Positions 12,411 through 63,432 of a stretch of 64,000 nucleotides of DNA are shown here, piece by piece (position 1 is the first letter of the stretch; every line of letters begins with the position of its first letter). The notes under the pieces were generated by a model that saw nothing but the letters and a program-made list of their open reading frames with translations, was not told where the DNA came from and did not search any database. The stretch is from Glomus cerebriforme (lineage: Eukaryota > Glomeromycota > Glomeromycetes > Glomerales > Glomeraceae). The translations under genes and the position numbers were made by a program. Where the stretch lies: NCBI GenBank assembly GCA_003550305.1, contig QKYT01000349.1, positions 3,647 to 67,646 of the forward strand. Direction: 5' to 3'.

Positions 12411-15400
12411 ATGGCAACAGTTAAAGAGACCTCACCAAGTTACCGAACGGGTAAAACTGAAGAACTAAATCCTAAAGAAACTCCAAAGCTAAATAAGGTT
12501 TCAAATGTTCTTTCTGCCGCACGTATGTTTGAAACTATGGCTACACCGTCCATAAAAGATAAACTGGCCAAATTTGAAAATAAAGGAATAAAGAACAATG
12601 AAATTTCATCAAATTTTGAACGTAAAAATACTATTAAAGGATTTGAAACAAATTCAAATAAAAAATTTAATAATAATAATAATCCTTCAATCTTTGAAAA
12701 AAAATTCAACAATTCTTCTTCTTCTATATTAAATAAAAATAAAAATAATATTGCCATTGATAAAAAATCCTCCTCCTCTTCTTCCTCTTCTATAATAGAA
12801 AATAAAAGTCCTACAACCATTAATACCACCAATAATACCATAATCACTAATACCGATAATTCTAGTCTTTCCATTAATACCGATAATAAAGATTCAACTA
12901 AAAAAGATTCTGCCATTGACTTGATGAAAAATTCAACTTCAGAACAACCTCCACCTACTGCTGCTGCTGCTGCTATTGCATTGTTGGCTTCTCGTATCTC
13001 TGCTTTAGAGGACGAGTTAGAAACTGTAGGAAAGGAAATGGTAGATAACGTAAAAAGGGAAGTAGATCTAAATTTAGAACTAGACACAAAATTAAATAAA
13101 AAGGAGGAAGAGATAAAAACTGTTACAGAACCTATACAGAATAGATTAAGTCAGCTTGAAGCTGACATTGCTCAATATAAAAATTATAGTGTTAATAATA
13201 ATAATAATGATTATAATAATAAAAGATCTTCTTCTGATACAAAATCTTCAAGAGAACACTCAGATTATTTTTCAGAAATGGGTACTCCCACAACTTATAC
13301 AACTTATAATTCGGATAGTTATAGTTTTTCAAAATCATTATCACAAAGTTCTCCGACTGAGTCAAGTAGTAGAAAATATTCTGGTGGAGGAGGAGGAAGT
13401 TTTCAAGATGATAATAGTAGTGTTAGTAGTATAGCATCATCTCCCTTTTCTCGTTCTCGAGTACCATCATATGAAACAAATCGTAGTGTATATAGTAGTA
13501 CTGAGATGGACACTTCACAATCTTTAAAAGCCCAATTAGAGAAAAAATATAATGAAGATCTCGAAAAAACGAGACAAGAATTAACAAATGAATTAGAAAA
13601 GACAAAAAATAAACATTGGAGTGAATTAGAAAGGACAAGGAAAGAACTTTCAAAACAATACAAAGAGAATGAAGAAAAAATTCGTACAGAATTATTTAAT
13701 TTACATAGATCTGAAAAAGAGGAATTGAAGAGAACTTATGATGCCGAAAAAGATAGGATAAAGATAGAAGTTGAGAAATTAACAATATTAAAAGAACAAA
13801 CTGAAAGAGAGTTAAGAGAAGTAAAAGAAAGGTTTGAAAGAGAAAAACAAACTATAATACAAGAATTTGAAAGAGAAAAAGTATCATTAAGGGAGGAACA
13901 CGAGAAACAATTAAATAATATTTCAAGATTACAAGGTGATGCCGAATATACAATAAATGAAATAAGAAGACAAAATGAGATTGAAAAAAAGGAATTGGAG
14001 ATTAGATTAGAAAAAGCTCATCAATCTGAAAGAGAACAGCTTTTAACAGAAATAAAGCAAAAGGAAGAATCTGAAACTAATTTGCGACGATATAAACAAG
14101 AAACTGAAACTACTTTGAATGATCTAAAAACACAACTTTTATTGCTTGGAGATTTAGTACGTCAAAAAGAAGAAACTGAGTCAAAGTTGAATAAATTAGG
14201 GGAAGAACATACACGTACCCTTGAAGAATTACAAACTCTTATTAAGAAGAAAGAGGATGCTGAAAATATACTTGCTCAATTTCAGCAAGAAAAAGAAAAG
14301 ACTATCCAAGATCTTAGAAGCGAATTATATAATAAAGAAAATGCAATATCTGCATTGGAAGAATTACGTGGTCAACTTAATGATGCTAATGATGAATTAT
14401 CTAATTTACGTCTGGAATTATCCAATCGTGATATGGATATTAGCAAAGTTAAAGAATTAGAAAATTTAATAGCAGATGAAAAGGAACAAGTTCAAAGGTT
14501 AGAACGTCAGCTAAAACAGGTTCAGATAGAGAGAGATGAACAAAATAAAGAGATTCTTGAATTGAAAGATTTCCATCAAAGAGATCGTAAAGAAGCAATT
14601 GCCACGTTGCGTGCAGAATTGACAACTTCACATAGTCGAGCCCTTGATAAACTTCGAGAGCAACTTATTGGTGAACGTGAAGAACAAGAACGTTCCATTA
14701 GACAAGAAATGAAAGAGAATCGTTCTAATGAATTTGAATCAATAAAATCACGTTTGAAAGAAGAGCATGAGGCAAAAATTGCCGAATTAATACGTAAAAA
14801 TGAGACCCTTGAACGCGAACTTTCTGAAAATGCTGTAGCTCTTAAACTTATTAATGATACTACTCGTCGTTTGGAATCTGCGGAAAAATCTTATTCAGAT
14901 CTTAATACGAAACATCAGCAGTTTGTTCAAAAAAATTTGCAAATGTCAACTGATCTTATAAGCTTACGCAAAAAGGTTGAAGAACTTGAACAAAAGAATG
15001 AGGTATTGAAAAACGAAAAGAAGTCTGAAAAAGAAATTTTTAATTCAGAAAAAGAACAGTTAACTTTAGATTTAAATAATGTTAAAGAAGAAATGCAACG
15101 TACACATGAAGAAGGCTTAGCACTGAAAGGTGAAGTTAAAGAATTAGAAGGAGAACGTAATAAATTAGCAGGTGTTATATCCATTATGAAGAAAGAATGG
15201 GAAAAAGAATATAAAAATTTAAAAGAAAAATTTCAGCAATCGGAAGCGGAAAGGATTGATTTACTTTCTCAAGTAACAGATTTACAAGAAGAAAATCTTA
15301 AATCAAAAGAGACATCTGAAAATGCCGAGAAACAGAAAGATGCTTTATCGAAAGTTTTGGAAGAACATCAAAGTGGAATGCAAACTTTAATGAAAAATAT

Positions 15401-16911
15401 GGCTTCTGAACGTGAAGCATGGCTACAAAAAGAGGCCGACCTTATTTCAAATCATGAGTCTATGGAATCCGAATTTAAAAAAAAGGGATCTGAATTAATT
15501 ATGATTCGTGAAGAGTTGGATATAGCTCGCTCAGAAAGACAGACGATGAAGCAAAAATTAATTGATGTTGGTAAAGAAAAGGTTGCGGCAGATATTAAAG
15601 TACGCGAATTAGAAACCGAGAAAAAAAAAATAGAAGGCGATTTGTCAAAGATTTCAGAAGAAAAAAGTAGACTATCAAGTCAGCTGACAGATGCCAGAAA
15701 ACAATTGGATAGATTTAAGGAACAACTTAAAGATTCTTCTCATTTAAAAGAGGAGAGTGAATCGCGTATTCTTATTCTTACTAAAGAAAAGGAAGAATTA
15801 GAAGATAAATTGTCCAACATTTCTGGTATACATAATGAGGAACTTACAATTAAATTAAATAAAATCGAAACTGAGTACGAGAAGAAAGAAATGGAAATTT
15901 GTCAATTGGAAACGAGCAAAAAACAATTGCAAACTCGTATTGAAGGTCTTGAAGCATCAACAAATCGTCTTACAATAAAATTGAGAGCAGCTGAATCAGA
16001 TGCTGAACAGACTAAACGAAGTGCTGATATTCAAGTACGTGAACTTCAAAATCGCCTTACAAATTCACAAATTGAAATTGAAGAACTTCACACACAAGTG
16101 ACAGATCTTCGGCAACAACTTATTGAGAAAGAACATATTGTAGAAACTCATAATAGACAATCTGCAAATAAAGATAATGCAAGGCTTTCCAATGCTACGA
16201 TGACTATTATGACTCTTAATAAACAGATAGAAAAATATAAAGTATCACAGGAAGTACTTGAAGAACAAATCGCATCGCTTAACAAGAAGCTTTCTGAGGC
16301 TGACGGTCAACAACACAGTATTATACAAAGTGCTGATAAGTCTATTGCACAAGCCGAAAAAACTATAGCTATGCTTCGTAGTAAACTTGAAACAACTCAA
16401 AGGGAACACACTCAAGAAAGGAATCAACTTAATCAGAGTCATCAAATCGCAATGAATGTCCTTAAGGAGCAACAAGAGGAGGAAATTGCCAAATTATCCA
16501 AAACAATGCAAATGCGTTTAGAATCCATAGAGAAACGGCAGCGTAACATTTCAACTAGTGATGGAAACGTAGACTCAAGTAAATTGAGTGCTTTGGAGCA
16601 AAAAGTTAAAGAATTGGAAAATTCATTAAAAACATCACAAGGAGAATGTGATCGGCTAAGTGAGACACTTGCACAAGTTCAAATGGGATATTTGGATGCA
16701 ATTAATGATAAAGATCAGTTGACACATGAAAAACGTGAAGTTGACAGAAGATTCAAAACTTTGGAATCTCAATATCAAGAGGTAAATAAATAGTTTTGTT
16801 ATTTAATTTTATAATTTTATTATAATATGTTGACGTATTTTTTAAATAAATTTATCATAATAGGTCTTGCAAAAGAATATGGATCTAGCTATTCAATTGA
16901 GTTCGAAATAG
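12411..16911 (+). CDS. Large coiled-coil protein, 1,472 aa
   Basis: A long first exon (12411-16781) is joined to a 48-bp last exon (16864-16911) by an 82-bp intron, replacing the apparent stop after GTAAATAAATAG. Residues 1-60 hold a conserved-looking stretch (SVLSAARMFETM type, then SIKDKLAKFE). Residues about 80-400 are Asn/Ser/Thr-rich low complexity with poly-Ser and poly-Ala runs. From about 370 to the end it is almost uninterrupted heptad-patterned Glu/Lys/Leu coiled coil. This layout resembles fungal long coiled-coil scaffolds (M-protein-repeat or Golgi/cytoskeletal tether type). I cannot assign a precise family, and generic hits to myosin tail or SMC proteins would be meaningless. Confidence 0.85.
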
Positions 16912-17329: not shown

Positions 17330-20300
17330 TTATACGATTCCCCAAACTAAATCTTCAACTTCTTCCCAATTCTTACATTCTCTAATGTTAGGTAGACAGC
17401 CAACTAAATATTTTACAGCACCTTCAAACTCCCATAAAAGCGTATACCACATTGCTCTTCTTTTAAACATTCTCATTGAAATCTTTTGTTCATTTCCTAT
17501 TTCATCATTATTATTATATTTTTCTAAAAATCTTTTTAATAATAATTTTGAACATCCCAATACCGAAATATAAATTGGTATTAAATCAAATAACGGATCA
17601 CCTCCATATACTTGTGAGTCACCCAAATCAATAACTGTTGTAGGTGTCCAATAACCTGTTAGTATTTCTTCATCTAAACAATTATAATTATTATGTTCTC
17701 GAGTTTCCTCGGCAGATGAGATAATTCCTAATATATTTTCGGCATTCAAATCACCATGTAATATTCCTGCTAATGGTCCGTCAAGTTCCGGATTATACAA
17801 TTCGAGTGGTGATGATGGTAAATATGAAGGAATTTGCGAAATTAAATGTGGTGAAAATATTAACCATTCAGCTTGAACTTTTGGTGCAAGTGATAGTCGA
17901 TGAGAAATAAATTTATGAAATGGATGTAAGGTTGATTGTTCGGTTGTTGTTAAATCGAATGTCATGTTTTCATCCAGAATAGAAGTAGGTGGTAAACTAT
18001 GTAAGGCTAAAAGAAGAATTAAAATAAAACCATTTATAAAGTAAAATAAAAGCTATTTATTTAATTGATATCTCAATTACCATATAAAATTTCAGCAGAA
18101 AAGTCGGTTACTTCACCCCATTTTACCATTCCTTTCTCTCCATTCATGTCTACTTCATCACTGGAACTCAGACCTCCTCCAACAATCACTTCGGCGAGAC
18201 TCATTCCACCGTCAGTGGCGGCTTCAATTACAAGATATGGCCATCTATAATTTCTTTCACTGCTTTCATCAAACAAATAACCTGATCTTACAAGCTTTGG
18301 GAAATATCTCGTGTATTTCTCAGAAATATGATCAGTAATTTTAGAATATGCCTTATTCTCTGCATTAAATGTTTTAATCCCATTAAATAAATGAGAATAA
18401 AATTTTATCACAACCGTAGCATTTCGAAAGACCTAATGTTTTAATAAAAATATTCAATATAAAATTCATTATTATTAATAACATAAATTTTACTTACTGG
18501 ATTTTGTCCATGTGAGATGACATTTATAGGTACATTCTCATCCAATCCACATCTTCTTAATACTTCAATCACTCTAGGTTGCCAAATTCTTAAATCACGG
18601 AATCCTTCAAGAAAATCCAGTTTGGAAGAAAACCCTTCTTCCTTTATAATCGGATCATCAGTATTATCTGAAAATGTTAAGATTTTACGTGTAATAAATG
18701 GTTCAAGATTAGGATAAGTCTTCAGCATCTTTTCATGGAAAGCCTCCCACGCCTGATTAAGATGTAATCAAAAAGATGATTATCATTTATGTTGAAATTC
18801 AATGAATTGAAATTTTAGGAATATTATGAATAGTATACATGCTTTATATTTATCTTTCTCGTTAATCAAAGATTCACAAACATGTTCGAGATTATGAATA
18901 TTGGCAAAGTTTTGGGTAACTGCAACAGTATCATCAATATTAAGGACCTTTATTAAAAACAAGAGCGGATATAAATTAATAAATTATGATTAAAGAACTA
19001 AATGGCAAAAAAGTTTGATACATAAAAAAAAATAATTACCATATGCCACCAACCACTATAATTTACCAACCAAGAAAAGAAAACTGTTAATATAAAGAAT
19101 GCATTTAATTCATATAATTTCGCGCAACGCTTTTTATATTTTTATGTTTTACCTTGGAATAAAAATTGTTTGCCTAAAATTTTTAAACAAAATAAATATT
19201 CGATAATTATTAAAATTTAATGTGTCAATAAGAGAACCTAAATAATTACCCGGGCTCTTGTATAATCTCGAGTGGTCGCATTTCTGGTGTTAATTGAGGA
19301 TAGACTTCAAGATACCAAAATAGAGAAGTTGCTGAATCCTTAGCATTTTCAAGCACATCTGTACTGTAAAGCGACTGATGGCCATTAATACCGGTTCGAG
19401 ATATGCTTAAGCCTAAAATAAAATAGAAAATTTTTCATCGGCAAAGACGTATGAGAGAAAGGAGAATTTCAATGAGCTTGAAAAAGGCGGAGTAAATTGC
19501 GAGTCTCCTGATTAAATTCAAATATTTACCTGGGGGAAAAACGTGTGGTGGGTACCTAAGAATTCAGAACAATTTAAGAAAGAGTTAAGTCAAATTCAAC
19601 TAAAATACATCTTCAATTGAAACCTAAACGTACAATGCCCAACGTTTTCTTCCTTCAATAGTTGTATTCCAAGCTAACCAAAAGAAAGGAATTCGAGATT
19701 TAATTACAAAATCAAAAACAAGTCTATAAATTAAACAGATGTTCAACCTGATGTTCCAGCAGGATCAACATGCCAAGAAGCGCCTAAAATAAAAAAAAAG
19801 AGTATTAAAACCTATTCTCGCATAGAATCAATGAGATTCAAGAATAATCAAGTCTCACCTGATCTTGCAGGACCAATTATAATCCATCGATATGGTGGTC
19901 TCTTATCTGATAAAACGGAAAAAAAATCTTCCTGGAAGTACTTTGGCACTTCATATGCTTCAGCCATTTCCGAATCTCTATCAGCAAAATTAGCATCAAA
20001 AATATATAAAGGTGTTTCATCATGTTGTGTACGTATATAATGTATATATGATTCTAAAGACATCGATAAATATCGATATTTTCCACCTCTTTCGTTGGCT
20101 ACTCGAAATATAGTTTTTCCATACTTTAAGAAAATCAAACCAAATATTATTTTAAAGTTACCGGGAATGCATAAAATAACTCAAGGATCCAAACCTTCTT
20201 CAATAAATTTTTCCACTTCCAATCAGTCCAAGCTTTCCACTTTTCAACTCCATTATCTTTTATCAAGACAGGAACGGATTGTGCATCATACAAACTTTCA

Positions 20301-20917
20301 AATTTTTCTTTTGTCAATTCCATACCATTTTCTACAGGAATTTCAGAGTCTGATGAAGTCTCAGGTGTTGGTATAAAATTGACAAGTAACATATTACAAC
20401 GACACCATTTTGCATATAAATAATGACTATGTCTTGTAATTTCTAAAAATGATAAATAAGAAATTGATCGAAAAAAAACGCTGTAGTTATAAAATTCAAC
20501 AATAATTATATTTACCAGGGAATTGTAAAAGTCGACACAATGGATGTGCCCAAACATTTTCTTTTTCCTCACATTCACTTAACATAGTTGGGAATAAATA
20601 AGTGAGTAACCAAGTTCCACGAAACATGAAGTTTTGCATGACCTCACGGTTATCGCCCCATTTATCTAAACAATGCTTCTTCCAAAGTTGATCATCGCGA
20701 GAAAATACATAAAAGAAACGAGATACTCGAGCACAATGAGCTAAATCCTTTATTAATGGAATGTTAATGGAGGTTTCAGTTAAATATGATACTTTAGTTG
20801 TAACACTGAAAAATTCGAAATGTATACCTGATCCGATAATTGAGCCAATATACGCTCTGAAAATATATTATCTGGAATAACATGTAACGTTCCCAGACCT
20901 CTGGCTCGAGGATCCAT
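17330..20917 (-). CDS. F-box / JmjC / APH-type kinase fusion protein
   Basis: Fourteen exons, 841 aa (2,526 coding bp): 20917-20828, 20747-20516, 20442-20195, 20123-19859, 19783-19748, 19673-19634, 19555-19530, 19412-19250, 19173-19153, 19055-19040, 18947-18843, 18752-18498, 18432-18081, 18006-17330. Residues about 12-60 form an F-box (HVIPDNIFSERILAQLSDQ). Residues about 120-400 are a JMJD6-like JmjC domain: VPVLIKD, PPYRWIIIGPARSG, the Fe-binding WHVD (H283, D285), AWN, and GWWHMV (H378). Residues about 540-841 are an APH/choline-kinase-like domain with HGDLNAEN (H700-N707) and VIDLGDS (D743). Plants have the same three-part architecture (Arabidopsis At1g78280/JMJ21). Exons of 16, 21 and 26 bp encode core JmjC pieces, and intron 18753-18842 is GC-AG. 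Likely an SCF-linked 2-oxoglutarate oxygenase; substrate unknown. Confidence 0.93.
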
Positions 20918-21580: not shown

Positions 21581-22665
21581 ATGACTTCAAAGAATCGTTT
21601 TATTACTTTTAGTTTTTTTGTTTTCCTTTTGATCCTAGTGCTTTCACCATATGCAAAAGCCTGGGATAATGGTATGTATTTTTTTTAGATAAGGTTTGTG
21701 TCATTATGGCTATGGCTGGTAAAACGATACTCGATATTCATTATTTACTAATACGATTTATCTATTTGTTGTTGTTTTAGAGGATCATGAAATATTTACA
21801 CTTGTAGACGATTTAGAAGCTTATGAAGGTGAAGGTGTAAACTTTTATTCTTGGCTTGGTTTAGAATCTACGGCTACGGAAAAAGAAATTAATAGAGCGT
21901 ATAGAAAATTATCACTTGAATTACAGTAAGTATTTACAATAAATAATCACATAAATATAAAATGCAATATTTATTTCCTTTTTTTTTTTTAGTCCTGATA
22001 AAAATCCTGATGCTGAAAGTAAAGAAAGATTCGCACTATTGGGCGCAATTACAAGAATTCTACGTAATCCCGATATGAGAGAACGTTATAATTTCTTTCT
22101 AAAAAATGGAGTTCCAAGATGGCGTGGTACTGGATATTATTATAATCGATATAGACCCGGATTAGTAACAGTTATAATTGGATTATTAGCATTAGCATCA
22201 TTTTTACATTATGTGATAATGTGGATAGATTACTTTCAGGAAAAAAAGAGAATTCGTCATTATATAAAAGAGTCAAGAGAAATTGCCTGGGGTAAAAAAA
22301 TGAAGAAGCAACTAACAAAAAAATCCGTTCGTGTAAACGATTTAACATTTATAGTTGAAGGTGATAATGTTTACTTAAAAAATGATAATGGAGGTCCATA
22401 TCCTATATTAGATGAAGAAAAAGTTGTTCAACCAAAAATTACTAATGTAATGATTTTTGTGTTACCCAGATGGTTCTATAAAAATATTAAAAAACAATTT
22501 TCCAATAAAAATCCTAATATTAATGGTACTTTAGTAAACTCTGGTAGTGAAAAAGATGGTTTCAGCAGCGATGATGAACGAAGTGAGGTTGGTGATAATC
22601 TTAGAAATAAGACAAGAAGGCGTAGAGGTGGAAATAAAAAACAAAACAGTAAACTGAAATCTTAA
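21581..22665 (+). CDS. ERJ5: ER membrane J-protein (Erj5/DNAJC1-like)
   Basis: Three exons (21581-21671, 21781-21925, 21993-22665) give 302 aa, close to yeast Erj5 (295). It has an N-terminal signal peptide (FFVFLLILVLSPYAKA), a J domain at about residues 45-110 with the HPD motif spanning the second intron, an adjacent transmembrane helix (GLVTVIIGLLALASFLHYVI) and a basic cytosolic tail ending in KTRRRRGGNKKQ. The luminal J domain would stimulate the ER Hsp70 (Kar2/BiP) and the tail may contact ribosomes as in DNAJC1. Family roles are inferred by homology. It ends 170 bp from the convergent QNG1 gene. Confidence 0.88.
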
Positions 22666-22835: not shown

Positions 22836-24346
22836 TTAAAAAAATACAGTATTCCGGAAGACAAGTCTTTCTAATTTCCTATAATTCTCTTCTTTTCCTA
22901 ATTTCCAAATATATTCATTCAAATCCATTAAATTAATTTCATTTCTCCCCAATTCCTTAGCTCGTGATACAATGATTTCAAAAGCGTCAACAGCAGCAGC
23001 ACGTAAACGATATGCATCTTGTATATTTGTGATTTCTTTTCCATCATCAAAATATTGTTTAAGTAGTGGTGTTAAATTAATTATGTTAAGATGATTTAGC
23101 ATTGTCGGTATAATACTATCAGCGCATAAAGTAAGATCAGATATGTCAGAGAAATCAAAATTAATTGTTTGGGCATTAAAATTTGAATGGAAATGACGAT
23201 ATAGGTTAGCGGCGAGAAGTTGTGCTTTTTTAAATATGTACACCGCTACGTTCATATAAAAAATATTAATATGGCTTAATACGGCTTAATACACCAAGCT
23301 AAATTGAGATAATTAAAAGCTTATAATCTTACGTTCTCCATCAACTTTTGTTATGTCTCGAAAAGCTGGAAAAGCTCGAACCAACTGAAAGAATTAAATG
23401 AGTCATACGCCTATATACCAAATAAAAGACAACGTTTTCACGTAAAAATTGCAAACCTTCTCAACAAATCTAGAAGCTTTAGACTTTTCGTTTGGCGTCT
23501 CGGGTTTAGAAGCTTCCAATATGAACGCTGCAAGATTTTTGTAACCATTTTCTTCTAGTATTCTTCCGGTGTCATTTAAAGTCCACGTGATTAATTCCAC
23601 TAAAGCTCGTGATTTTGAAGGCTCAGATACTTTGATTGCTTCAATTGTTGGATGAGCAATTTCAACTTGTAGTGGTATCTGGAAAAAGGAAGAGACCTCA
23701 GAGAGTGCCAATGAGCGTAATGCATGTGCAGATAATGGAGATGATGTAATATGAATGGACATAACTCCATAACGGATCGTGTTAAAAGCACCCTATCATA
23801 AAGATTTTGACTGTCAAAGAAATCCGAATGATATTAAATGAATTCTATTATTAAGTTTACCCTGCCACATTCTTCATGCAATTCTTTACGAAATCCACTT
23901 CCAAAATTCAATAAACTGATTAATCCTATAATGTTTATTTCTTGTTCTAAAGTATCGAATTTTAACGGCATCTAATAATTATAACATAAAGCTCTAACAT
24001 TCATTATGTATATTAAATAAAATGTCTGTATTCACTACCTGTAATCCATCGCTTTTTGAAAGTTCTTGAAAGTGGTTAATGTCTATTTTTTGTATAAAAT
24101 CTGTTATCGCATCTTCATTTATCTATTAATTATTGAAAAAAATATAAATAGCGGTCACAGTCTTTATTAGATAAACTCGATAAAACATAATAATACCTGA
24201 ATGCGACTTCGTTCTCGACAGTCATGACAAGAAGTTCGTATTGCTTGAACAAAATTACCTTGAGGATAAAGGACGGCGCTGTCAGTAATTCCACTTGTGT
24301 TTATATTTGCCATTTCTTTTTTAATAAAATTTCGAATTTTGAGCAT
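22836..24346 (-). CDS. QNG1: Queuosine 5'-phosphate N-glycosylase/hydrolase (DUF2419)
   Basis: Six exons (24346-24197, 24122-24039, 23971-23861, 23792-23457, 23384-23333, 23245-22836) give 380 aa. Diagnostic stretches are KFDTLEQEINIIGLISLLNF, GSGFRKELHEECGRGAFN and LTLCADSIIPTML, which match the DUF2419/C9orf64 family. The family releases queuine base from queuosine nucleotides so that it can be inserted into tRNA by the queuine tRNA-ribosyltransferase. Budding yeast lacks the pathway, so its presence suggests this fungus salvages queuine from host or bacterial sources (inference). The start at 24346 is the first ATG in frame; it lies 77 bp from the divergent NSA1 start. Confidence 0.9.
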
Positions 24347-34249: not shown

Positions 34250-34263
34250 TTTTATTTACAAAA

Positions 34264-50500: not shown

Positions 50501-51533
50501 AAATAATAATAATAATAAATAATAATTATTGCAATTTTAATTTTAGTTTATACTATAATTTTAATAATATTTTGTATAAATTAAATAAATTAAATATATC
50601 AAACTAAATTTAGTTTGATTTAAATTTGATTTAATTTAGATTTTTAAAATTTTAATATTTATAATAATTATATAAATTTTATTAATATTTACTATTTAAC
50701 AAGTTATTTAATTTGAAAGTTTAATTTAATTTAAATTTAATTCAATTTAATTAAATTATTTGCAAATTCTAATGATTTATAATTAAAGATTTAATATTCT
50801 AAAACTTTATTACTTTATTTTTAGATTATAGATTATTTTCTTATTTTTTTTTATTTAAGAAATAATATAAATCTCTAAATATTTTCTTCTATCTTATTAA
50901 AATGAGTTAAATAATAATAAATTTTTTTATAATTACTAAATAGTCAGCAATTTAATAAAATATTAAAATATTAGTATTTTAACTATATTACTTGATATTT
51001 TTTAACATAGAAAAATAAAACTACTACTATTAAAATCAGCTTATTTGAAAAGTTTAACTAAAAATCCATTTTTTTTTAAGTAATATATTTATAAAATATT
51101 CTTCTTCTTCTAATAGAAAGTTTTATTACTATTACAAGTAAGGTTAACATCTCAACTGTTTTTTAAATAGTTGTATAATTATTTGTTATAGATATATAAA
51201 AAACTTAAAGTTGTAGTTATAAATTATGAGTTGCAATTAGTAAAATCTAGTTGTAATATCATTTCTAACTATAACTTTTAAGATTATAATAAGTTTAATC
51301 ATCCAATTGATAATAAAAAAAATAAGACCAGCTTTTATATTTTAATATTTAACTAAAAAGTAGAAAACTGGTATTAAAGATTATATCAATAATTATAAAT
51401 AGAAAGAATAATTTATATTCAAAAAAATCAATAAATTAGTATGATATATTAATTAAATTTATAATTTAGATTCTAATTTTAATTTTTCAGATAATATTAA
51501 ATAATATTAATAATATAATTAATATTTTTAATA

Positions 51534-51559
51534 CGTATACAATAAATACGTTTAACTTG

Positions 51560-51588
<29 letters not shown>
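51534..51588 (+). mobile_element. 55-nt retroposon end with 17-bp target duplication
   Basis: About 30 nt (CGTATACAATAAATACG then TTTAACTTGTCTT) and an A-run are flanked by 17-bp copies AATTAATATTTTTAATA (51517-51533 and 51589-51605). It is an extreme 5' truncation of the retroposon family ending in CTTGTC. The end motif and the duplication support each other; either alone would be weak. Confidence 0.8.
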
Positions 51589-51596
<8 letters not shown>

Positions 51597-52146
51597 TTTT
51601 TAATATTCCTACTTCTTTTTATGATAATATTGGATCAAAATATAGTATAAGGGGCAGTTGATAGCTAAGAAATCTTCTATTATAGAAATTATCTTTAAAA
51701 AGTATGAAAAGTTATACTTTTTGTTTTTATGAAAATATTATATTACTGTATTCAATTTTCTAATGTCACTGATATGTTAATGCCGTAATTCCGGCTAAGT
51801 TTTACAGTATTACGTGATTATTTGACTCCGCTTTAGACAGGCCCTTTTTGGAATTTGTGTAACGGGTGAATATGTTACACATTTGTAAATTGTTTATTTA
51901 TAAAGGTAATCTAAACGTGAATTTAATATAATGTTAAATAGAAATCAGAAGAATAATAAACAAACAAATCGGCAAAAAAATTAAACTAGCAGAAATTTAT
52001 ATATCATCTGGTTACGATTAGAAAAAGAGGCCAAAACCCTGCAAAAAAAAAATTGAAGCAAAAGTTGGTCGAGTAAAAAAGGAATATTCTATTGAGATGA
52101 TTAAACCAAAAAAAAATGTTATTAGTAAAGAACGTGAAACAATTAG

Positions 52147-54642
52147 TTATAGAGGACTATAAAATAATTGTTGCCAAACACCATTCGAGGTACTTGCTAT
52201 AATTATAAGAATAACTAAAATAGCTGTAAAGAAAGAAAAGATAAATAGTTTATATTAGTTATGAATATTTATAGATTTGAATTTTTTATGAAGACGTACC
52301 TCCAACAATTCTACATTGAGCAAGGATTTTAGATGATTTTTTTTCAATTTCAACTTGATTTTTCAACTTCATTAACTGTATAATAAAGACAAAAGCGCGT
52401 AAATTATACGTGAAAAAGTTAATAAGTACTAAATTATACATACGAGTTGCTGATGTTCTTTTAATTTTTCACTTTTATCACGAATACGTGTACGAATTGA
52501 AGGTAATTTATCGGCTATTCCTTGAGTAGTTTGATCTGCCAAATTAATAGTTTCTTCCATTTCTTTTGTTGACCTAGACTTAGTCACCGAAATGGTTTCA
52601 TTCAAATCCTAAATTATTTTAAATAAATTAATCAATCAATACTATTATGTTCTTCTTATAAAGTTTAGCTTTATAACCTCACCTTTGCATGTCTGTCCAA
52701 ATCACGACATTTACGTATATTCAAATCAAGTTCCTTTGATTTTTGTATAATAGTTTCCTAGTGAAATTAAGAGTAAGTCTACATTTACTTCCTTTTAAAA
52801 AAAAAATGAACTTGAAAATGGACTCACACGCAAAGTAACAATTTTATCTTCATATTGATTACATCGATTTGCTAATTCTTCTATCAATTCAATAAAATCT
52901 GTAGGACCAATATCTTCTTCATCACTATCAATTTCATCATCATCATCATCAGAATCTGAGGATTGCAATGTAACTGTAGATTGAAATAAATTAATAAATT
53001 AATCTCATACGCATAATAAATTCCAATAAAACTTACAAGAGGACTTTTTCGTATCATTAAAGAATCGTAAGGTATTCAAAAATTTTCTCTTTTCATTCAA
53101 AAAATATGTTCCAAGTTTAAAATTTTCTTGTCTCGCTTGAATCTTAAATATGTTTATATTCGTACCTACAAAGCCAAAGAGCATGAGTTGATTACTTGTT
53201 ATCTCATGTGCATTGTTAAGATCATAATCAAATAACTTTGAGCCAAAATTTACTCACCAGTGTCATTTTCACCTTTAAAAAGTATTTCATCAATGGAACA
53301 AAGTTCTTTATATTCGACATCTTTAAACCTATCAAACACATTGTCCTTAGATGTTTTAAACCCTTTTTTATTTTGATTAAACAATCTTTTTCTACTAAAA
53401 TTTTCTTTTTCTTCTTCGACAAAATCATTATTATTTTCCTCCATTAATTTACTATTATCATCGGAAAATGGTTTGAAGTGTTCTTTACACCAAGTATATT
53501 CTTCGGTACTATTATTATCGTCAACAATATAATAATATAAAATAAAATTTTCAATCTTGAAAATTAAATAATTTTCAATCTCATTTTTTTCAGTTAAATT
53601 TTTAAAAATAAAAATTATTGGTAAATCAATAAATTTTTGTACACTTTCCAAATTCATTTGTGCAGATAGTCTATCATCAAAAACGGTTTGAGATAAAGAA
53701 GGAGGTTTAGAATGTTGAATTATATTAGTAATTTGATCATAGGGAATAGATTGTAATAAATTTGATTTATTGTTCCTTGATGGTAAATAAAATGTAGCCA
53801 CATTATCAAAATTCATAATATTACGAAATGAAGATGATTTGATATTAAAAGATTTTTGCTTTTTCTTTTTTAACGATTTATTATGTTTACGTTTTCTACC
53901 AAATATCACAGGTGTTGACACATTTGTGGGCGAGGTAGAGGTAGCGCTTGGTTTTGATTTAACAGTTGATGTTCTTGATGAAGGGAATTTAAATTTATTA
54001 ACCACTGATACGGGTGATTGAAATAATATACTATCTTCGCTAAAATATCCATCATTATTATTACTATTATTGTTGTTGTTAATCGGTGTTGTGATTAAAT
54101 TTATTCTTCTTGGATGTAATTTTTTTAAACGTCCAAAAGAATTATTGTTATTGCTAATTTGTGTTGATGAAAAACTTTTTGAAAGATCTGGCATAGATGC
54201 ACTATTATTATTTTGTAAAGTATAATGTCGAGTTGTAGACGGAGTAGACGATGATTCCGCTGGTGATAAATATATTATTGGTATGCTTTGATTCTGATTC
54301 ATTCTACTATGTGCTGGTGTAATATCTGTACGAGTAATATCAAATAAAAATCTTTTTTTTTTGTATATCAAATATTATCCTCGAAACTAAAACAAGAAAA
54401 CAATATGACTTACCATGTTCGTCTGCACTAGATCCACCACTATCAGAGAATCCTTTAAGTTGTCTTTGTAATCTAGGTAATTTAGCTGTTATTTTACGTA
54501 CAGCTCTTTTTTTCTTACCAGAAGAAACTGCAATATGGCGAACATTTGGGGAAGTTGGCTTTGATAGTGTATTGGTAGTATTGTCAACGTTAATATCAGT
54601 ATTAACCGTTATTGTGGGTGGTAATGATTTTGACAATGACAT
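52147..54642 (-). CDS. Tail-anchored coiled-coil protein, 654 aa, unrecognised
   Basis: Eight exons (54642-54414, 54325-53258, 53165-53037, 52973-52828, 52757-52683, 52608-52444, 52375-52300, 52223-52147; 1,965 bp) give 654 aa. The N-terminal half is low complexity (Asn/Ser/Thr-rich, with KKKRAVRKITAK and KRKHNKSLKKKKQK basic clusters). A globular-looking stretch follows (FIDLPIIFIFKNL...YLIFKIENFILYYYIV), then an acidic patch (SDSDDDDDEIDSDEED) and a C-terminal coiled coil of about 190 residues. The last exon encodes a single hydrophobic helix (AILVILIIIAS) close to the C-terminus, as in tail-anchored membrane proteins. I do not recognise the family; the anchor and coil recall SNARE-like or tether proteins, but no SNARE motif is clear. 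Confidence 0.75.
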
Positions 54643-54809
54643 TAAAGCTGTAATTGTACAAAATAAGCAATATATTTTTCCGGCTCGAGAAGTTATGTGC
54701 AACAACCTATTCTAACTGGATTCCATAAGTGGACCATGCGTAAATAGTACGACATAACTAAATCCTCAAAAAATTTTTTTTTTTTAAAAAAAATACCGGA
54801 ATAATAATA
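54643..54809. promoter_or_regulatory. 167-bp divergent promoter, tail-anchored gene/RPF2
   Basis: 167 bp separates the start codons. It includes a T-run followed by an A-run (54773-54791). No recognised factor site. Confidence 0.5.
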
Positions 54810-56091
54810 ATGTTGAAGAAAATGTATGTTTTATGTTCAAAAAGTTCTATTTTACCTTACTTATTTTAATATTATTTGATGTAATAGCAAACCAAAAAAC
54901 GCGCGCTCAAAAAGAGCTTTACAAAAACGAGAGCCAAAAACTGAAGAAAATGTAAAGAAAGCAATATTTATTAGGGGTAGTTCAACAAGTCAAATAGTTA
55001 ATGAAGCATTATCAGACCTAGTAAGTTACGAAAGTAATCTTGTACTTTTTTCATATATATGTATATTTAATTTCATTAACTTTCCTCTCCTCTTTCATAA
55101 ATAGTGTAAATTAAAAAAACCGGATGCAATAAATTTTACAAAAAAGAATAATACAATACATCCATTCGATAACGATACTTCATTAAATTTTTTCTGTGAA
55201 AAAAATGATACTTCATTATTCGTTGTTGGTTCCCATTCAAAAAAGCGTCCAAACAATTTAACTTTTATTAGAATGTTTGATGGTCAAATACTCGATATGG
55301 TTGAAGTTGGTATTGAAAATGCTAAATCATTAAGTGAATTCAAGGTAAATATGTTCTTGACTAGATGAATATTTAAACCAAGAAATTCTTTATTATATTA
55401 AAACAAAAAATATAATATTCATTCTTAGACCTCAAAATGTGCTATTGGAATAAAACCTTTATTTTTATTTGTCGGTGATTTATTTGAAAATTCTCAAGTA
55501 CACAAAACTTTTAAAAATATGTTGCTGGATTTTTATCGTGGTCAATCTGTAAAAAATATTAATTTATCAGGGTTAGAACATGTTATTTCTGTTACAGCCA
55601 TTGATTCTTCTTCAGAACAATCAAGTGATACTAGAGCTATGCCAGGGATAATTTATTTTAGGGTATACACTACACAATTTAAAAAATCTGGCGAAAAAAC
55701 TCCAAGAATTGAATTAGAAGAAATGGGACCAAGTTATAATTTTAGAATTAGAAGATTTAAATTTGCTAATGATGATGTTTATAAATTAGCCACAAAAGTT
55801 CCTAAAGTTAATAAGGTATCTTACAATAATNTTTTTTTTTTTTTTTTTTTTAAAGGAATTTCTTTTCTTATACAATTTTATTTTATTTTTATTTTTTAGC
55901 CAAAGAAAATCAAGAATATTGATGTTAATGAAATGGGTGATAAAATTGGTCGTATTCATCTCGGTAAACAAGATTTAAGTAAATTACAAACAAGGAAAAT
56001 GAAAGGTCTTAAACGTATTGCCGAAGATTATACAGAAGAAGATCTTGAATCGGAAGAACTTGTTCCTCTAACCAAAAAGCAAAAAGCCTAG
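54810..56091 (+). CDS. RPF2: Ribosome biogenesis Brix-domain protein Rpf2
   Basis: Five exons (54810-54823, 54888-55020, 55105-55344, 55429-55815, 55900-56091) give 321 aa. The 14-bp first exon splices to give MLKKIKPKNARSKRAL, the family N-terminus. The Brix domain follows (AIFIRGSSTSQIVNEALSDL, LFVVGSHSKKRPNNLTFIRM, GLEHVISVTA, YNFRIRRFKFANDD), then a basic C-terminal tail (KMKGLKRIAEDY). Rpf2 with Rrs1 loads 5S rRNA, uL5 and uL18 into the pre-60S particle. An N at 55831 lies in the last intron and does not affect the coding sequence. Confidence 0.96.
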
Positions 56092-56281: not shown

Positions 56282-57493
56282 TTAGGCGATGAAAGGGAAC
56301 ATAGCCGTACGATTCTTTGGATAATCTTTAAATTCTTTACGATAACTCTTATGTTTTTTTACTGCCCACAGAAACATTTGAGTAGAGCCTACAACAAGAA
56401 ATAGCCAAGCTTATCCGAGAAAAAAATTTTATTTAGTAGAGATTTTATCATTGTAACAAATTCACATATAATGATCAGACTTTTGATAATACCTGCAAAC
56501 GATTTGGTTAAAATACTAACACTAAGCCATGCAAGTGTTTCAAATAGATAATTGGGACAAGATACCAAATTAAAACCATATCCATAAGGAATCCTACGAA
56601 CGCGAGTTCCCGGCGGGCGAAGATTGCGCAGAATGATGTGACTATAAAGATTAGAAATTTGTGCCCACTATAGAAATATTAAGAATTCAGACATACGTTA
56701 TTCGTGATATAGTGCATTATAGGGAAATTTACATAATAACATACAGCAAACACCCCTAGACAAGTCCAAATCAGCCATTCTTCGCGCTCACTACCATGTT
56801 TTCCAGCAGCATTCCAGGGACCATATACCCAATAAGCTAAGTTTATACCACTAAGCGCATGATAATGGAAAGAATTTTTGAATACATTAAAGAAAGGCAT
56901 AGTGCTATGTGAGAAACGGTGAACGAACAAAGTTTCGATTTCACGTTTGATAAAATGAGCCATAATCATATAGTACGCGATCCTATTAAAGTAATTAACA
57001 AAAAAAAAAGATGAATACGAATTGATAAGTAGAATTGTTGTTAATTTAACTCACTTACGTTTGCATCTTGCTGTGTTCAAATTCTTCTCCATAAATTTGG
57101 GACTTGAAATAATAGACTAACGGATGAACTAAGATGGGACCAAAATATTCAATAAGGAATACAGTTCTCCAGCTGATTTGCGGACCTTTTTAAATTTAAT
57201 CAATAAAAAAAAAAATGTAAAAATAAATAAAAATATATTAAATAAACAAATTAATACTTACCTAAGTCTTTAAACGAAATAGAATCTCCTTCTTTAATAT
57301 CATAATCCTTTAGAAGTTTCCCTTCTTGTAAAACCGATTGGTTAATAGTCAAACGTTGGCGGTCAGGATAATATTTTGGCACTACTTTATATATAGCTTG
57401 TTTAAGCTGGTCAACAGTCGCGTCGACCGGTATATTAATTGTTAAAGGAAATTTTTGGGAATTCTCCGTACGAGAAACAATATTTATTTGCAT
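56282..57493 (-). CDS. TSC13: Very-long-chain enoyl-CoA reductase Tsc13/TECR
   Basis: Five exons (57493-57262, 57185-57059, 56982-56697, 56667-56493, 56388-56282) give 308 aa (yeast Tsc13: 310). The N-terminal about 75 residues form a ubiquitin-like region (DATVDQLKQAIYKVVPKYYP). The C-terminal steroid-reductase-type membrane domain has FGPILVHPLVYYF, ETLFVHRFSHSTMP, GYGFNLVSCPNYLFE and the end KEFKDYPKNRTAMFPFIA. It performs the last reduction of fatty-acid elongation in the ER membrane, supplying very-long chains for sphingolipids. One intron is only 29 bp (56668-56696), unusually short; homology across it supports the splice. Confidence 0.95.
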
Positions 57494-57563: not shown

Positions 57564-57603
<40 letters not shown>

Positions 57604-57801: not shown

Positions 57802-58636
57802 ATGGTAATCTCACTTTTCTAAATTTAAGTTTGAAATTACTTTTTTTTTTGCTAAAAACGTTCTTTTATTCTAGGTTAATTTATCTCTTTATACAACCAC
57901 TGCCGTGATAATTCTTGATAGTGACGGCAATAGAATAATTGGAAAATATTATGGTATTAAGAATCCGTATCCTACTTCAAAAGAGCAAAAAGTTTTCGAA
58001 AAGGGATTATTTGAAAAGACCAGAAGGGCTAATGGTAAATTTTTAATTGCAAGACTTGTTTAATTTTTATTATAATTATCTAAACTCTTTTCTTTATTTT
58101 AAATCTCGGCGGTAGGTGAAATTATCCTTTATGATAACCAGGTAGTTCTTTACCGTAATAGCATTGACGTTTTTTTTTATGTTGTTGGATCTGCGGAGGA
58201 AAATGAACTTATATTGAGCAGTATCTTGAGCGCATTTTATGATTCTATATCAAGTTTATTAAGGTAAATTATATAAAATCTTTTATTTGGAAAATTTAAC
58301 GATTTATTGAAAATATTAAACTTTTTGTGTAATAGGCATCAGGTTGAGAAAAGAACACTTGTCGATAATCTCGATCTGGTTGTTCTTGCTTTGGATGAGA
58401 CAATAGATGATGGGTAAGCAAAAGAAAAATTGAATTTTTCTTAACTTTGAAAGAAATTTTAACGTTTCTTTCGCTTTTTTAGAATCGTTTTGGAAACTGA
58501 TTCGAATGTAATTGTTTCTCGAGTATCTCGTCTTCGCACTGACACAACAGACATTCCAATCACAGAACAAACTTTCATTCAAGCATATCATACTGCAAGA
58601 GAAAGGGTCGCTGAGAGATTACTACGAGGAGTGTAA
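57802..58636 (+). CDS. RET3: Coatomer zeta subunit (COPI)
   Basis: Five exons (57802-57804, 57875-58034, 58116-58263, 58336-58413, 58483-58636) give 180 aa. The first coding exon is the ATG alone; the next exon continues VNLSLYTTTAVIILDSDG. An in-frame TAA two codons before the ATG excludes a longer exon. Conserved stretches are GKYYGIKNPYPTSKEQKVFE, DVFFYVVGSAEENELIL, VEKRTLVDNLDLVVLALDE and TEQTFIQAYHTARERVAERL. Zeta is the small longin-fold subunit paired with gamma-COP in Golgi-to-ER coats. Confidence 0.95.
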
Positions 58637-58786
58637 CATATACAGCTATTTTGTAATAAGACTAATAAATTTTTATAATTTATTTTATATTTCTGTCTTT
58701 ATATATTACATTACATACCTCTATATAAATAAATAAAAAAAAAAATTATTTAAATAAATCAATAAAGCAAACAAACCAAACTTTAA

Positions 58787-59209
58787 TTATACGCACCTCG
58801 CTTTCATTTGTAAAACTAATTGAACCTTTTTTCTAATAGCATCCTTAAATTTTTTTTGTTCAATTTCCATTCTAACACGTTGTCTTTTTAAAAAAGGTTT
58901 TTCGTAATATCTATTTCTTCTAACCTCTTGCCGAATTTTATTTGAATTAAGTATAGTCCATAATTTTCTATAACCAGCCATAACATTATTTCCTACTGTA
59001 ACAGTACGACCTGCCGTAGTACTTTTATCGCCTTCTTTTGGTGCAGCTATTTGTTGAACTTTTGAATGCATAATAATTGATTCTCTTTTAAATGGTGTCG
59101 GGATTTGTTCTGACTTCTTTGTATGTTTTGATCGAAGGAAGAAAGTTGAAGGACGTAATTTAAGTTGTTGGTTTGTGAAAGTAAAGAATTTCTTGTTTAA
59201 TGAGAACAT
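58787..59209 (-). CDS. MRP21: Mitochondrial small-subunit ribosomal protein bS21m
   Basis: A single 140-aa frame (59209-58787). The N-terminus (MFSLNKKFFTFTNQQLKLR) is presequence-like. The C-terminal about 65 residues are the S21 domain: AGYRKLWTILNSNKIRQEV, RYYEKPFLKRQRVRME, RKKVQLVLQMK. It would sit in the mitochondrial 37S/28S subunit. The frame is open further upstream, but the first conserved-looking targeting sequence begins at this Met. It is 142 bp from the divergent UTR4 start. Confidence 0.9.
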   Translation of the reverse strand: MFSLNKKFFTFTNQQLKLRPSTFFLRSKHTKKSEQIPTPFKRESIIMHSKVQQIAAPKEGDKSTTAGRTVTVGNNVMAGYRKLWTILNSNKIRQEVRRNRYYEKPFLKRQRVRMEIEQKKFKDAIRKKVQLVLQMKARCV

Positions 59210-59351
59210 CGTTAAATTCACATGAATGTTAAGAATGTAGAGTTTGATTTTTTGATTTTTATTTCTTATCATGCACGTGACAGACTTAGATCTTTGAGGC
59301 ATATAAAAATTTTTTTTTTTTACGGGACCAACTTGTAGAAAAAGATACAAA
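59210..59351. promoter_or_regulatory. 142-bp divergent promoter, MRP21/UTR4
   Basis: 142 bp between start codons, with GCACGTGAC at 59273-59281 (an E-box-type CACGTG at 59274-59279) and a T-run near 59311-59321. CACGTG also occurs between QNG1 and NSA1. Confidence 0.5.
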
Positions 59352-60149
59352 ATGTCCATAACATCCACATATAAATGTGTTCTTCTTGATATTGAAGGAA
59401 CAACTACACCAATTTCATTTGTTCATGATCGTTTATTTCCATACGTTAAAAATAATTTAATAAATTTCTTGAATGAAAATTGGAATTCGCCAGAATTACA
59501 AGAACAAATTCAATTATTAAGAGAACAAGCAACAAAGGATGTCAACAATAATTTAACTGATGCGATTCTCATTCCAGAAGCACAGCAACAAGGAGAAAAA
59601 AGTAAAGAAGAAGAGATTAAAAAAGCTATTATACAAAATATTCAATGGCAAATGAAAATAAATAGAAAAGTGGGTGCACTTAAATCATTTCAAGGATTTA
59701 TGTGGAAATCAGGTTATGAATCAGGAGAATTAAAAGGAGAAATATTTGATGATGTATTAGATGCATTAAAAAAGTGGAAAGAAATTGGAATTAAAATTTA
59801 TATTTATTCATCTGGTAGTATTTCAGCACAAAAATATTTATTTAAGAATTCTGATAAAGGTGACTTATTAGTATACATTGATGGTCATTTCGACACTTCT
59901 ATTGGAAGTAAAATGGAAAAATCTAGTTATGTAATCATTGCTAAAGAAATTCAATTTGAACCTAATGAAATCTTATTTCTTAGTGATAATGTTAAGGAAA
60001 TAAGTGCTGCTAAATCTGTTGGTTATCAAACTGCTATTATTGAGCGTAAAAACAATTTACCTTTGTCTGATGATGATCGTAAAGATAATGTTATTTTCAC
60101 AGATTTTTTTCATATATTTTCTCATTCTTTTTGTAGAATCGAAAATTAG
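59352..60149 (+). CDS. UTR4: Enolase-phosphatase E1 (methionine salvage)
   Basis: An intronless 265-aa frame, rare here. HAD motifs are visible: motif I LLDIEGTTTPISF with D13 and E15, motif II YIYSSGS, and motif IV ILFLSDN. Family-specific stretches FVHDRLFPYVKNN, LKSFQGFMWKSGYESGELKG and VYIDGHFDTSIGSK make it a clear MASA/Utr4 enzyme. It converts 2,3-diketo-5-methylthiopentyl-1-phosphate to the acireductone in methionine salvage, in cytosol and nucleus. Confidence 0.96.
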   Translation: MSITSTYKCVLLDIEGTTTPISFVHDRLFPYVKNNLINFLNENWNSPELQEQIQLLREQATKDVNNNLTDAILIPEAQQQGEKSKEEEIKKAIIQNIQWQMKINRKVGALKSFQGFMWKSGYESGELKGEIFDDVLDALKKWKEIGIKIYIYSSGSISAQKYLFKNSDKGDLLVYIDGHFDTSIGSKMEKSSYVIIAKEIQFEPNEILFLSDNVKEISAAKSVGYQTAIIERKNNLPLSDDDRKDNVIFTDFFHIFSHSFCRIEN

Positions 60150-60902: not shown

Positions 60903-63432
60903 TTAATCACTGCTTTCATCCCAAGAAGTAACCCATGCGTGATAAAGAATGTTTGGGAGTTGGAGAATATCTATCTTTCTCTTATGACCATTACGCAACT
61001 TTCTAAATTGTTGGTTTACAATGTAACTTCGGGCAACTCCTTCTGGAGAAACAAAGTCAACTGCAGTTTTGATACAACTCGTATAATTACAAACTTGATG
61101 TGCACATCCTGCAGGAACAAAGATGACGTCACCAGGGTTTTGGAAAAATCTAATATTGAAGCAATATTAATTTTCTCAACCACAAAATAAACCGATATAA
61201 AGAGAGCAAAAAAATTTACTATTTACCTCCATCCCGTAACACCTTCCTCCGCAGCTAATCGATCTCTCAATCCTTTGTCCAAATAGAAACATTGGTCATG
61301 TATAGGATGGTTGATTGATAATCCATATTCTTTTGCAATTTTTCTTAAAAATCGTCGTACTCTTGGAAGGTCGGCTGGATGATATAAATCCCAGACTGCT
61401 GCTGCCGGCTTATCCCGCTCTTCTTCTAGGCGATTTTCAACACTCGGAGCATACGCCATCATATTAACTGCATCAGTCATATCAAGATGGAGGTTTGTAG
61501 TACCTTTACCACCTACATTATCTTCAGAACCATAAGCATTATACATCTTTGGACCGAGATCAGGACGGTTAATCTCCAACGGTAATCTGTGGGCCAGATT
61601 CATGATTCCATTACGAGTCGTATATTCCTTAAATGGTAAAGAATTAGAGAAATCTTCATAGTGTTCTGGGAACGTCTCTGCGAAGTCATCTGCTGGTGGC
61701 CAGTCCTATTTTACGCAAATAAAATAAGTTTATTAAAAGATATAAAATTCAAGCAAATTTTCAGTAAGTTTCAAATATATACTTTTAATTTTAAGCAAGG
61801 ATAAGTTCCATATTTGTTCATGAATCGTTTACTACTATCTTCAAAGCCCCTGAAAAATGTTTTAACGTCCATTTTATACTCAACATTCTCCTTGACATCG
61901 ATTACTGTACAATCTTTATTACCGTAGTGTTTAATGAAGTAATCTGGTTTCCAGATATTTTCTTTTAATTTGTCCACACTCTTGATCACAAAAGGATATC
62001 CTTTCCTCCATAGATCTCTGAAGATTTCTTCGGTCATTTCGTTAGCTTTATACTCAGTCTTCTTATGTTCGTCATGTAATTGGGGAGTACGATCATGACA
62101 ATCCTGTGGTGGTGATGTAAAGATGCCATTATCTTGATTTGATATTGACACGACGGAATCCTTAAAATGAACTGTTGTTGCTTTAGCTTTACTTTTAGAT
62201 GTTCTGTATTTTCGCGAATCTTTCCGACGTCGAGTCATAACTCTTGAACTTTCTACGGATTTGATAGTAGAGCTTGAACTTTCTGCAGATAGATTCGCAG
62301 CGTCATCATCGGGCAATTCACCTTCGTCTAAATCCGAGCTATCCTCATCGTCAAGAATCATCTGATTACATTGATCAAAAAGACGAACAATTTCTTCTTT
62401 TGTGTAATGATAAATCGGCACCAACTGTTCTTTGTAGTGGTGCCTTTTTTGAGAGCATTTTCTGGTCTCTTTTAACGAATCATCAGAATCGTTCCATTCT
62501 TCATAGCAAGAAAGGCAATATTCCCTTCCGCAAACACAACACATCCAAAATCCGCTGAATATTGTTGTTTGGCAATAATCGCATAATTGGCAAATCTTAC
62601 GTTCTGGAAACTTGCGGATTTTTGCCATCTCGAGATGTGGAAGTTCCTTTTGAAGGAACCTCATGAATGTTGGTGCAATCAAGTCTATATATTAAAGAAG
62701 AAATCAGCATGTCAAAATTTTTTTTTGCCGAATATTAATCGAGACCCATGACTATTTACTTACCAAGAATGCGAACGTTTTTGACCTCGTCATCACTTAC
62801 ACCACCCTCATAAGTTGACTCTGGATCAGGTCCTTCCACCGATATAAAATCCGGGCCATATACTAGATCGTCCTTTTTTTGCCCAAACACCCGTATGCCG
62901 TTGAATCGGCATATGTCTGACTTCTTGGCCAAGCCTAAATTATAGTAAAAAAATTAATCAAATTAAAAGAAATAATTGACATAAAAAAATACTTACATGC
63001 GGTACATCTTTCAAAATCGTAGTATCTTGCCGAGAAGCAACGTCCCTGTTGGATATGCTTCTTACCCGGCACTGGACGAACTTTAATTAACGGTAACCTT
63101 TTCTTTCGAGGTTCTTCAGCTTCATCTTCATTACTTTCGGAGTCAAGCTTTCGCTTGGACGCCGCGGGCTCTGCAACTTTTCTTTTCTTCGGTTGTTCAA
63201 CGGGAACATCAATAGCCTTTCTCTTGCCACCAGTTGTTATAGGCTTTTCGTTTCTTGCAACTTTCTTATTCTTTGTTCTTCCAGGAAATTTCTTTTGTTG
63301 CTTTTTAGGAGAAGGAGAGTAAAATTTTGTCGTCTTTCTTGTTCGCTGTGGTCTCTTTGAACTTCCAAAAGTTGCGTTTGCAGCTGCATCAGGTCGAGTT
63401 TCAGAAATGGAACCAATTCCTTGGTCGGACAT
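60903..63432 (-). CDS. KDM3-like JmjC histone demethylase with zinc finger
   Basis: Five exons (63432-62997, 62934-62764, 62684-61783, 61705-61227, 61149-60903; 2,235 bp) give 744 aa. Residues 1-140 are basic and Ser/Lys/Arg-rich with several possible nuclear localisation signals. A Cys-rich zinc finger (CQLCDYC, CCVCGREYCLSCYEEW) is at about 234-270. An acidic linker (DDEDSSDLDEGELPDDD) follows. The JmjC domain spans about 440-720, with TTNLHLDMTDAVN giving the iron ligands H576 and D578, and CAHQVCN giving H680. The zinc finger plus TTNLHLD signature is that of the KDM3/JHDM2 family, which removes methyl groups from H3K9. Substrate specificity is inferred from the family. All three metal ligands are present, so activity is expected. 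Confidence 0.92.

Follow-up and report, generated by a model that had tools for sequence, protein, structure and literature searches.

Eighteen genes on strictly alternating strands in Glomus cerebriforme: probably a long stretch of a milder orientation tendency among closely packed genes

Does a row of genes whose strands alternate without exception reflect selection on the whole row, or is it what a milder tendency of neighbouring genes may produce from time to time? The question is raised by a stretch of 64,000 nucleotides (hereafter, the window), which corresponds to bases 3647-67646 of a contig of 120,518 base pairs (bp) (C468) in a 112.5-Mb genome assembly of 1,117 contigs; its source is Glomus (Rhizophagus) cerebriforme, by taxonomy an arbuscular mycorrhizal fungus. 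A first reading made from the letters of the window (the sequence-only reading) had claimed that 18 genes between positions 12411 and 63432 alternate strictly across two repeat blocks, that all pairs are divergent or convergent, and that this suggests selection or a mechanism favouring shared promoters and terminators. The first two claims were borne out: the strand order was + - + - + - + - + - + - + - + - + - (17 of 17 junctions alternate), every adjacent pair lies on opposite strands, with gene 8 (see below) backed by a deposited protein, and no tandem pair, that is, no operon-like or polycistronic co-directional organisation, was found within the 18 genes. Selection of the 18-gene run itself was not supported. 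If orientation were purely random, such a run would be unusual; given the milder bias estimated for other parts of the genome, it is not, and it is probably a lucky long stretch of a milder back-to-back and tail-to-tail tendency of closely packed genes.

Under random orientation, the chance of 17 alternating junctions is 2^-17 (7.6e-6), as the sequence-only reading had stated, and approximately 0.08 runs of at least 18 genes would be expected per 21,000 genes. That estimate overstates the surprise, since the expected number per 21,000 genes becomes 1.4 when 0.60 of the junctions alternate and 6.1 when 0.66 do. Thus, with approximately 1-6 such runs expected per genome at 0.60-0.66, selection on the block of 18 genes as a whole need not be invoked. 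For R. cerebriforme DAOM227022, the available portion of PMC9453076 gives 136.89 Mb, 2,592 scaffolds, 26.55% GC and 1.574 genes per 10 kb, from which density a total of approximately 21,500 genes was derived; contigs are probably in part missing from the 112.5-Mb assembly, as it is smaller than the published 136.89 Mb. The genes and repeat blocks of the run, followed by its left neighbour, are listed here (aa, amino acids; HMM, hidden Markov model).

12411-16911, plus: gene 1, large coiled-coil protein, 1472 aa (HMM model; open frame of 1461 aa)
17330-20917, minus: gene 2, F-box/JmjC protein, 802 aa (Pfam F-box-like, JmjC and Cupin_8; 836-aa homolog 82% identical over 100% of the query)
21581-22665, plus: gene 3, DnaJ-domain protein, 302 aa (Pfam DnaJ)
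22836-24313, minus: gene 4, queuosine salvage protein, 362 aa (Pfam Q_salvage)
24424-26188, plus: gene 5, WD40 protein, 349 aa, presumably WDR74/Nsa1-like (14 WD40-type families, best E 5.4e-11, all below the curated cut-offs)
26308-26865, minus: gene 6, mitochondrial ribosomal protein Img2, 139 aa (Pfam Img2, 6.5e-28)
26883-29475, plus: gene 7, Sec1-family protein, 570 aa, which we take to be Vps45 (Pfam Sec1, 2.7e-134)
29705-30146, minus: gene 8, BLOC1S3-like, 95 aa as deposited, 3 exons (Pfam BLOC1S3; homologs; deposited protein)
30826-34101, no strand, ends approximate: inverted-repeat transposon-like element in the divergent gap of genes 8 and 9 (long inverted arms; genome matches)
34264-35537, plus: gene 9, replication protein A 32 kDa-like, 283 aa (Pfam RPA_C)
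36026-38260, minus: gene 10, protein without Pfam match, 718 aa, 2 exons (HMM model)
38491-41555, plus: gene 11, SLS1-like protein with KH domain, 726 aa (Pfam SLS1_N and KH_1)
41556-52003, no strand: second repeat block, in the convergent gap of genes 11 and 12, including a 532-bp inverted repeat
52004-54737, minus: gene 12, 666 aa, C-terminal hydrophobic segment (six homologs, five of them named, from Rhizophagus and Funneliformis; no Pfam match)
54810-56091, plus: gene 13, Brix-domain protein, 317-321 aa, start uncertain, presumably Rpf2 (Pfam Brix, 6.1e-49 on the 317-aa version)
56282-57493, minus: gene 14, enoyl reductase TECR/Tsc13-like, 292 aa (Pfam Steroid_dh; TECR_N just below cut-off)
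57802-58636, plus: gene 15, small adaptor chain, 161-180 aa, assumed here to be zeta-COP Ret3 (Pfam Clat_adaptor_s on the 161-aa version)
58711-59209, minus: gene 16, ribosomal protein S21 family, 140 aa (Pfam Ribosomal_S21)
59352-60149, plus: gene 17, HAD hydrolase, 265 aa, presumably enolase-phosphatase Utr4 (Pfam Hydrolase)
60903-63432, minus: gene 18, JmjC protein, 744 aa (Pfam JmjC, 6.3e-13; JmjC match in its own genome; "KDM3-like" is the label of the sequence-only reading only)
10739-11540, plus: CCCH zinc-finger gene (gene model, Pfam zf-CCCH), in tandem with gene 1 and the left limit of the run

Genes were called with an HMM gene finder that models both strands jointly and was trained iteratively on the sampled DNA of the same genome; it replaced a single-strand finder that fused genes across opposite-strand neighbours. 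Models were counted as artefacts if they scored below 15 or averaged less than 60 bp of coding sequence per exon. Seventeen of the 18 run genes were recovered above the threshold of 15. Pfam was searched with 17 proteins (the coiled-coil protein of gene 1 was left out): 15 had a family at E<=0.001, 14 of these over the curated cut-off and the WD40 protein (24424-26188) only below it, and no family was found for 36026-38260 or 52004-54737. Two models that could have been merges proved to be one gene each: 17330-20917 has an alignment over 100% with a Rhizophagus protein of 836 aa, and 52004-54737 has alignments over 94-95% with proteins of 638-642 aa. A tRNA search of the window found none, and no Rfam family reached its gathering score there. 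Note that two different JmjC genes (17330-20917 and 60903-63432) lie close to opposite ends of the run, and that some homologs of the former have PF01636 (phosphotransferase-like) toward the C-terminal part.

Gene 8 carries the alternation across the first repeat block; if it is removed, the order contains one tandem pair (29475/34264). The HMM finder gave only a weak 50-aa model here (score 3-4 versus the threshold of 15). A 3-exon model built by hand, which encodes 106 aa, reaches 27.6 bits for Pfam BLOC1S3 (cut-off, 27) and has seven homologs (identity, 75-89%; query coverage, 45-100%), of which four share this Pfam domain. The best homolog is a deposited 95-aa Glomus cerebriforme protein encoded at this place on the minus strand: its residues 1-10, 12-51 and 52-95 read exactly from the window, with the first codon at 30146, and the hand model differs from it in one splice site and in the start (30137 versus 30146).

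To the right of gene 18 lie 29.6 kb of gene-poor DNA (6.0 kb of N) with weak models only. If the junction from gene 18 to 92991, which spans this partly N interval, is counted, the run extends to 100252-102161 and contains 22 genes; we claim 18, because weak plus-strand models at 80117-81475 could break the longer run.

The divergent gaps of the run measure 663, 110, 17, 4126, 230, 72, 308 and 142 bp (median, 186 bp) and the convergent gaps 418, 170, 119, 229, 488, 10448, 190, 74 and 753 bp. Thus, seven of the eight divergent pairs have a start-to-start gap below 1 kb (17-663 bp), of which the 17-bp gap of genes 6 and 7 may reflect a misplaced start codon of gene 7. The eighth (4,126 bp, or 4,117 bp with the deposited start of gene 8) holds the transposon-like element at 30826-34101 (~3.3 kb), without which ~0.84 kb would be left. 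One arm of this element had 40 scored matches in the genome, its own two arms included, and the arm matches form 8 opposed pairs genome-wide, 1.5-3.1 kb start to start; the element, which is of high copy, has internal 131-bp and TCAGATCAGATC-type tandem arrays. The 10.4-kb convergent gap contains the 532-bp inverted repeat (43045-43576) plus other low-complexity DNA, and the sole gene model in this block has 35 aa and a score of 2. The arms of the inverted repeat are 95-96% complementary with ends CACTGGTCAAAAACTGATC, resembling a miniature inverted-repeat transposable element (MITE); within the same block, 46001-48000 is strongly purine-rich on the plus strand (GC skew, +0.36; AT skew, +0.35).

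How are genes oriented elsewhere in this genome? The sample comprised three contigs, 340.5 kb in total (59 kb of N): C468 as a whole, 160 kb of C568 and 60 kb of C247. Two low-scoring models were restored because of homology: that of gene 8 and, outside the run, where weak models were looked at unsystematically, that of a LYR-family gene (score, 12; Pfam match; 116033-116332 in window coordinates). The latter adds one alternating junction outside the run and thereby favours alternation. The finder merges some close tandem genes, and three such merges, found by eye and by Pfam searches on the pieces, were split before the curated count: a complex I 75-kDa-like gene had been joined to a membrane protein gene, PSS to a His7-like gene, and ITFG2 to a C-terminal unit assumed here to be AdoMet decarboxylase. 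The following were dropped from the curated count: by eye, three models of a stretch resembling a long interspersed nuclear element (C568, 74263-80993) and a hAT-like fragment (C568, 4855-6218); four models of 59-227 aa (C568, 2099, 32167, 35431 and 39944); a model between long gaps (C568, 43409-46064); a weak window model (8126-8467); the junctions between four C568 clusters; and the junction from gene 18 to 92991.

In the curated count, 29 of 44 junctions outside the run alternate (0.66, p=0.024) and 15 are tandem. The alternation depends on distance: 23 of the 30 junctions with a gap below 500 bp alternate (p=0.0026), as against 6/14 at 500 bp or more (Fisher p=0.042) and 2/7 at 1,000 bp or more. 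When the count is restricted to C568 and C247, 17 of 22 junctions below 500 bp alternate (p=0.0085). By cluster, the values are 7/8, 2/3, 9/14 and 2/4 on C568, 0/3 on C247, and 8/10 and 1/2 on C468 outside the run; tandem pairs are accordingly present elsewhere in the genome (C568, 9/29; C247, 3/3; right arm of C468, 2/10; left end of C468, 1/2). The cluster with 8/10 is a second dense island to the right of the window (92991-116332 in window coordinates), whose genes include S7e, S17e, NAD(P)H-hydrate dehydratase, an ITFG2-like gene, the LYR protein and, by eye, polyubiquitin. The machine count over the three contigs gave 51/71 alternating junctions with gene 8 included; outside the run and before curation, it gave 34/54 (p=0.038), with 22/28 below 500 bp and 8/18 at 1,000 bp or more.

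As a control, the finder was run on 44 genomes with randomly flipped gene segments, for which its mean alternation was 0.50 (standard deviation, 0.07); therefore, the finder does not create alternation between separate genes, although the control is blind to merges already within gene models. Comparison with the flipped genomes came out in favour of a bias for the three contigs together (the observed 0.70, gene 8 uncounted, was reached by 0/44 flipped genomes) and for C468 (0/44), but not for the other two contigs singly: the value of C568 was reached by 3/44, and that of C247, which has no alternation, by 44/44. Eight finder settings were used with two score thresholds, and the five settings that recovered the 17 window genes gave 0.59-0.68 outside the run (p, 0.009-0.10).

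Words in the gaps (up to 900 bp, classed by the machine gene models) were also counted. CACGTG occurs 7 times in 6 of the 20 divergent gaps (5,547 bp), 3 times in 4,357 bp of tandem gaps, 29 times in 265 kb of genic and other DNA, and not at all in the convergent gaps (5,953 bp); it is approximately tenfold commoner in divergent gaps than in genic and other DNA (C468 and C568), with a Poisson probability of 3.5e-6 against this background and ~0.005 after multiplication by 1,389 six-letter words. It stands out only versus the background rate: in the comparison between gap classes, the best words of the divergent set had nominal p values of 0.0006-0.01 among 1,389-3,804 words, and none was significant after correction. 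Two divergent gaps of the run have a mid-gap CACGTG:

24361-24367, minus: CACGTG palindrome, about halfway along the 110-bp gap between the divergent genes 4 and 5
59274-59280, plus: CACGTG palindrome, about halfway along the 142-bp gap between the divergent genes 16 and 17

Across the window, 10 matches to CACGTGA were found at 7 places (1.6 expected), but only 2 of the 7 places are in divergent gaps. AATAAAT was found in 16/20 convergent versus 5/20 divergent gaps (word picked afterwards, uncorrected). CACGTG is a candidate promoter element of this fungus, and the distribution of the two words agrees with promoters lying in divergent gaps and poly(A) zones in convergent ones, but proves neither.

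The account that we consider more probable than not is that of a compact gene island with a distance-dependent orientation bias, in which the length of 18 is a chance long run and not a selected unit. Neighbours in the island are successive divergent pairs, which would have one short promoter zone each, and convergent pairs, which would have one shared 3' zone each. A tandem arrangement of two genes within a few hundred bp would be disfavoured because read-through from the upstream gene is predicted to cross the downstream promoter, and divergent pairs would persist because the promoter is shared. The alternation would continue across the repeat blocks because these were probably inserted later into existing gaps. 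The preference for shared promoters and terminators suggested by the sequence-only reading is partly supported by the excess of close opposite-strand pairs, the short divergent gaps, CACGTG and AATAAAT; its extension to the run itself is not.

Several points weigh against this account. The curated sample is small (44 junctions on three contigs, of which C468, the contig with the run, supplied 12), and the 500-bp limit was set after the gaps were seen. On C568 and C247 alone, 20/32 junctions alternate overall and 12/32 are tandem, which is not significant (p=0.11), and the single-contig results of the flipping control, given above, point the same way. The result also depends on the model, since three finder settings that over-split known window genes gave 0.40-0.59 outside the run; further merged tandem pairs may remain; and CACGTG is confined to 6 of the 20 divergent gaps. 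With a small sample, a post hoc limit and this model-dependence, the data suggest an avoidance of close tandem pairs in this genome; the orientation bias is likely, though not proven.

The same avoidance may extend further. In very AT-rich arbuscular mycorrhizal genomes, close tandem genes might be avoided genome-wide because AT-rich intergenic DNA would terminate transcription poorly; islands would then settle into alternating divergent and convergent pairs, and the palindromic CACGTG could act as a direction-neutral promoter core for some divergent pairs. This wider proposal is a tentative one, and we regard it as possible but doubtful.

Among the rivals, the one that survives best is that orientation is random genome-wide and the run is a rare coincidence, noticed since many windows and features were read. 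The lack of significance on C568 and C247 speaks for it, as do the four successive genes on one strand of C247 and the survey result, in the available part of PMC2871058, that co-directional pairs make up approximately 50% in the majority of 64 eukaryotes. It is nevertheless unlikely, as so few runs of this length (0.08 per 21,000 genes) would then be expected and the close junctions outside the run alternate in excess, as do 8/10 of all junctions on the right arm of the same contig. Less probable still is that the run itself is real and the background bias an artefact of models that merge close tandem genes: three such merges were indeed found, and splitting settings lower the alternation figure, but the curated counts were made after these merges had been split, the flipped genomes gave no inflation (with the blindness noted above), and the window genes checked are not merges. 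That selection, or a mechanism that works on many genes at once (a balance of supercoiling or a chromatin domain, for instance), maintains the block as an alternating array is very improbable, for although 17/17 is above the 0.66-0.77 found outside the run (probability of 17 alternating junctions at that background, 0.0009-0.012), about 1-6 runs of this length are to be expected per genome at 0.60-0.66, the window was drawn from a scan that reports striking features, and the functions of the run genes, judged from their names, look unrelated.

For the favoured account of a distance-dependent bias, the literature offers partial parallels. PMC2871058, as far as available, also names four species, including Cryptococcus neoformans, that seem less random, and reports that divergent pairs of fungi are notably well conserved when the distance is short. 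Our data resemble these species, a fungus among them, in a likely departure from the expectation of 50% co-directional pairs; the direction of the departure, long alternating runs and Glomeromycotina are not mentioned in that part of the source. Among Cryptococcus species, orientation bias varies (PMC8022950, in the part available). For yeast, the accessible text of PMC3128071 describes a lower size limit of promoter-containing gaps, similar for divergent and co-directional pairs; seven of the eight divergent gaps of our run (17-663 bp) are in or near the shared-promoter range, whereas old divergent gaps below ~130 bp are practically absent from yeasts, and our run has gaps of 17, 72 and 110 bp between predicted start codons, some of which are perhaps misplaced. 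In Arabidopsis, close pairs interfere at their 3' ends (PMC2851598, in part), which offers a reason for disfavouring close tandem pairs; according to the same partial source, close convergent pairs are also affected, as judged there from co-expression, whereas close convergent pairs are common in G. cerebriforme. No paper on gene orientation in Rhizophagus or other arbuscular mycorrhizal fungi was found, judging from the listings.

Many eukaryotes place neighbouring genes in near-random orientation. If the bias estimated here is true, a fungus that avoids close tandem genes would allow the shaping of gene order by transcription interference to be put to the test and, for the arbuscular mycorrhizal fungi, a group with difficult genetics, it would provide a simple prior for gene prediction and promoter finding.

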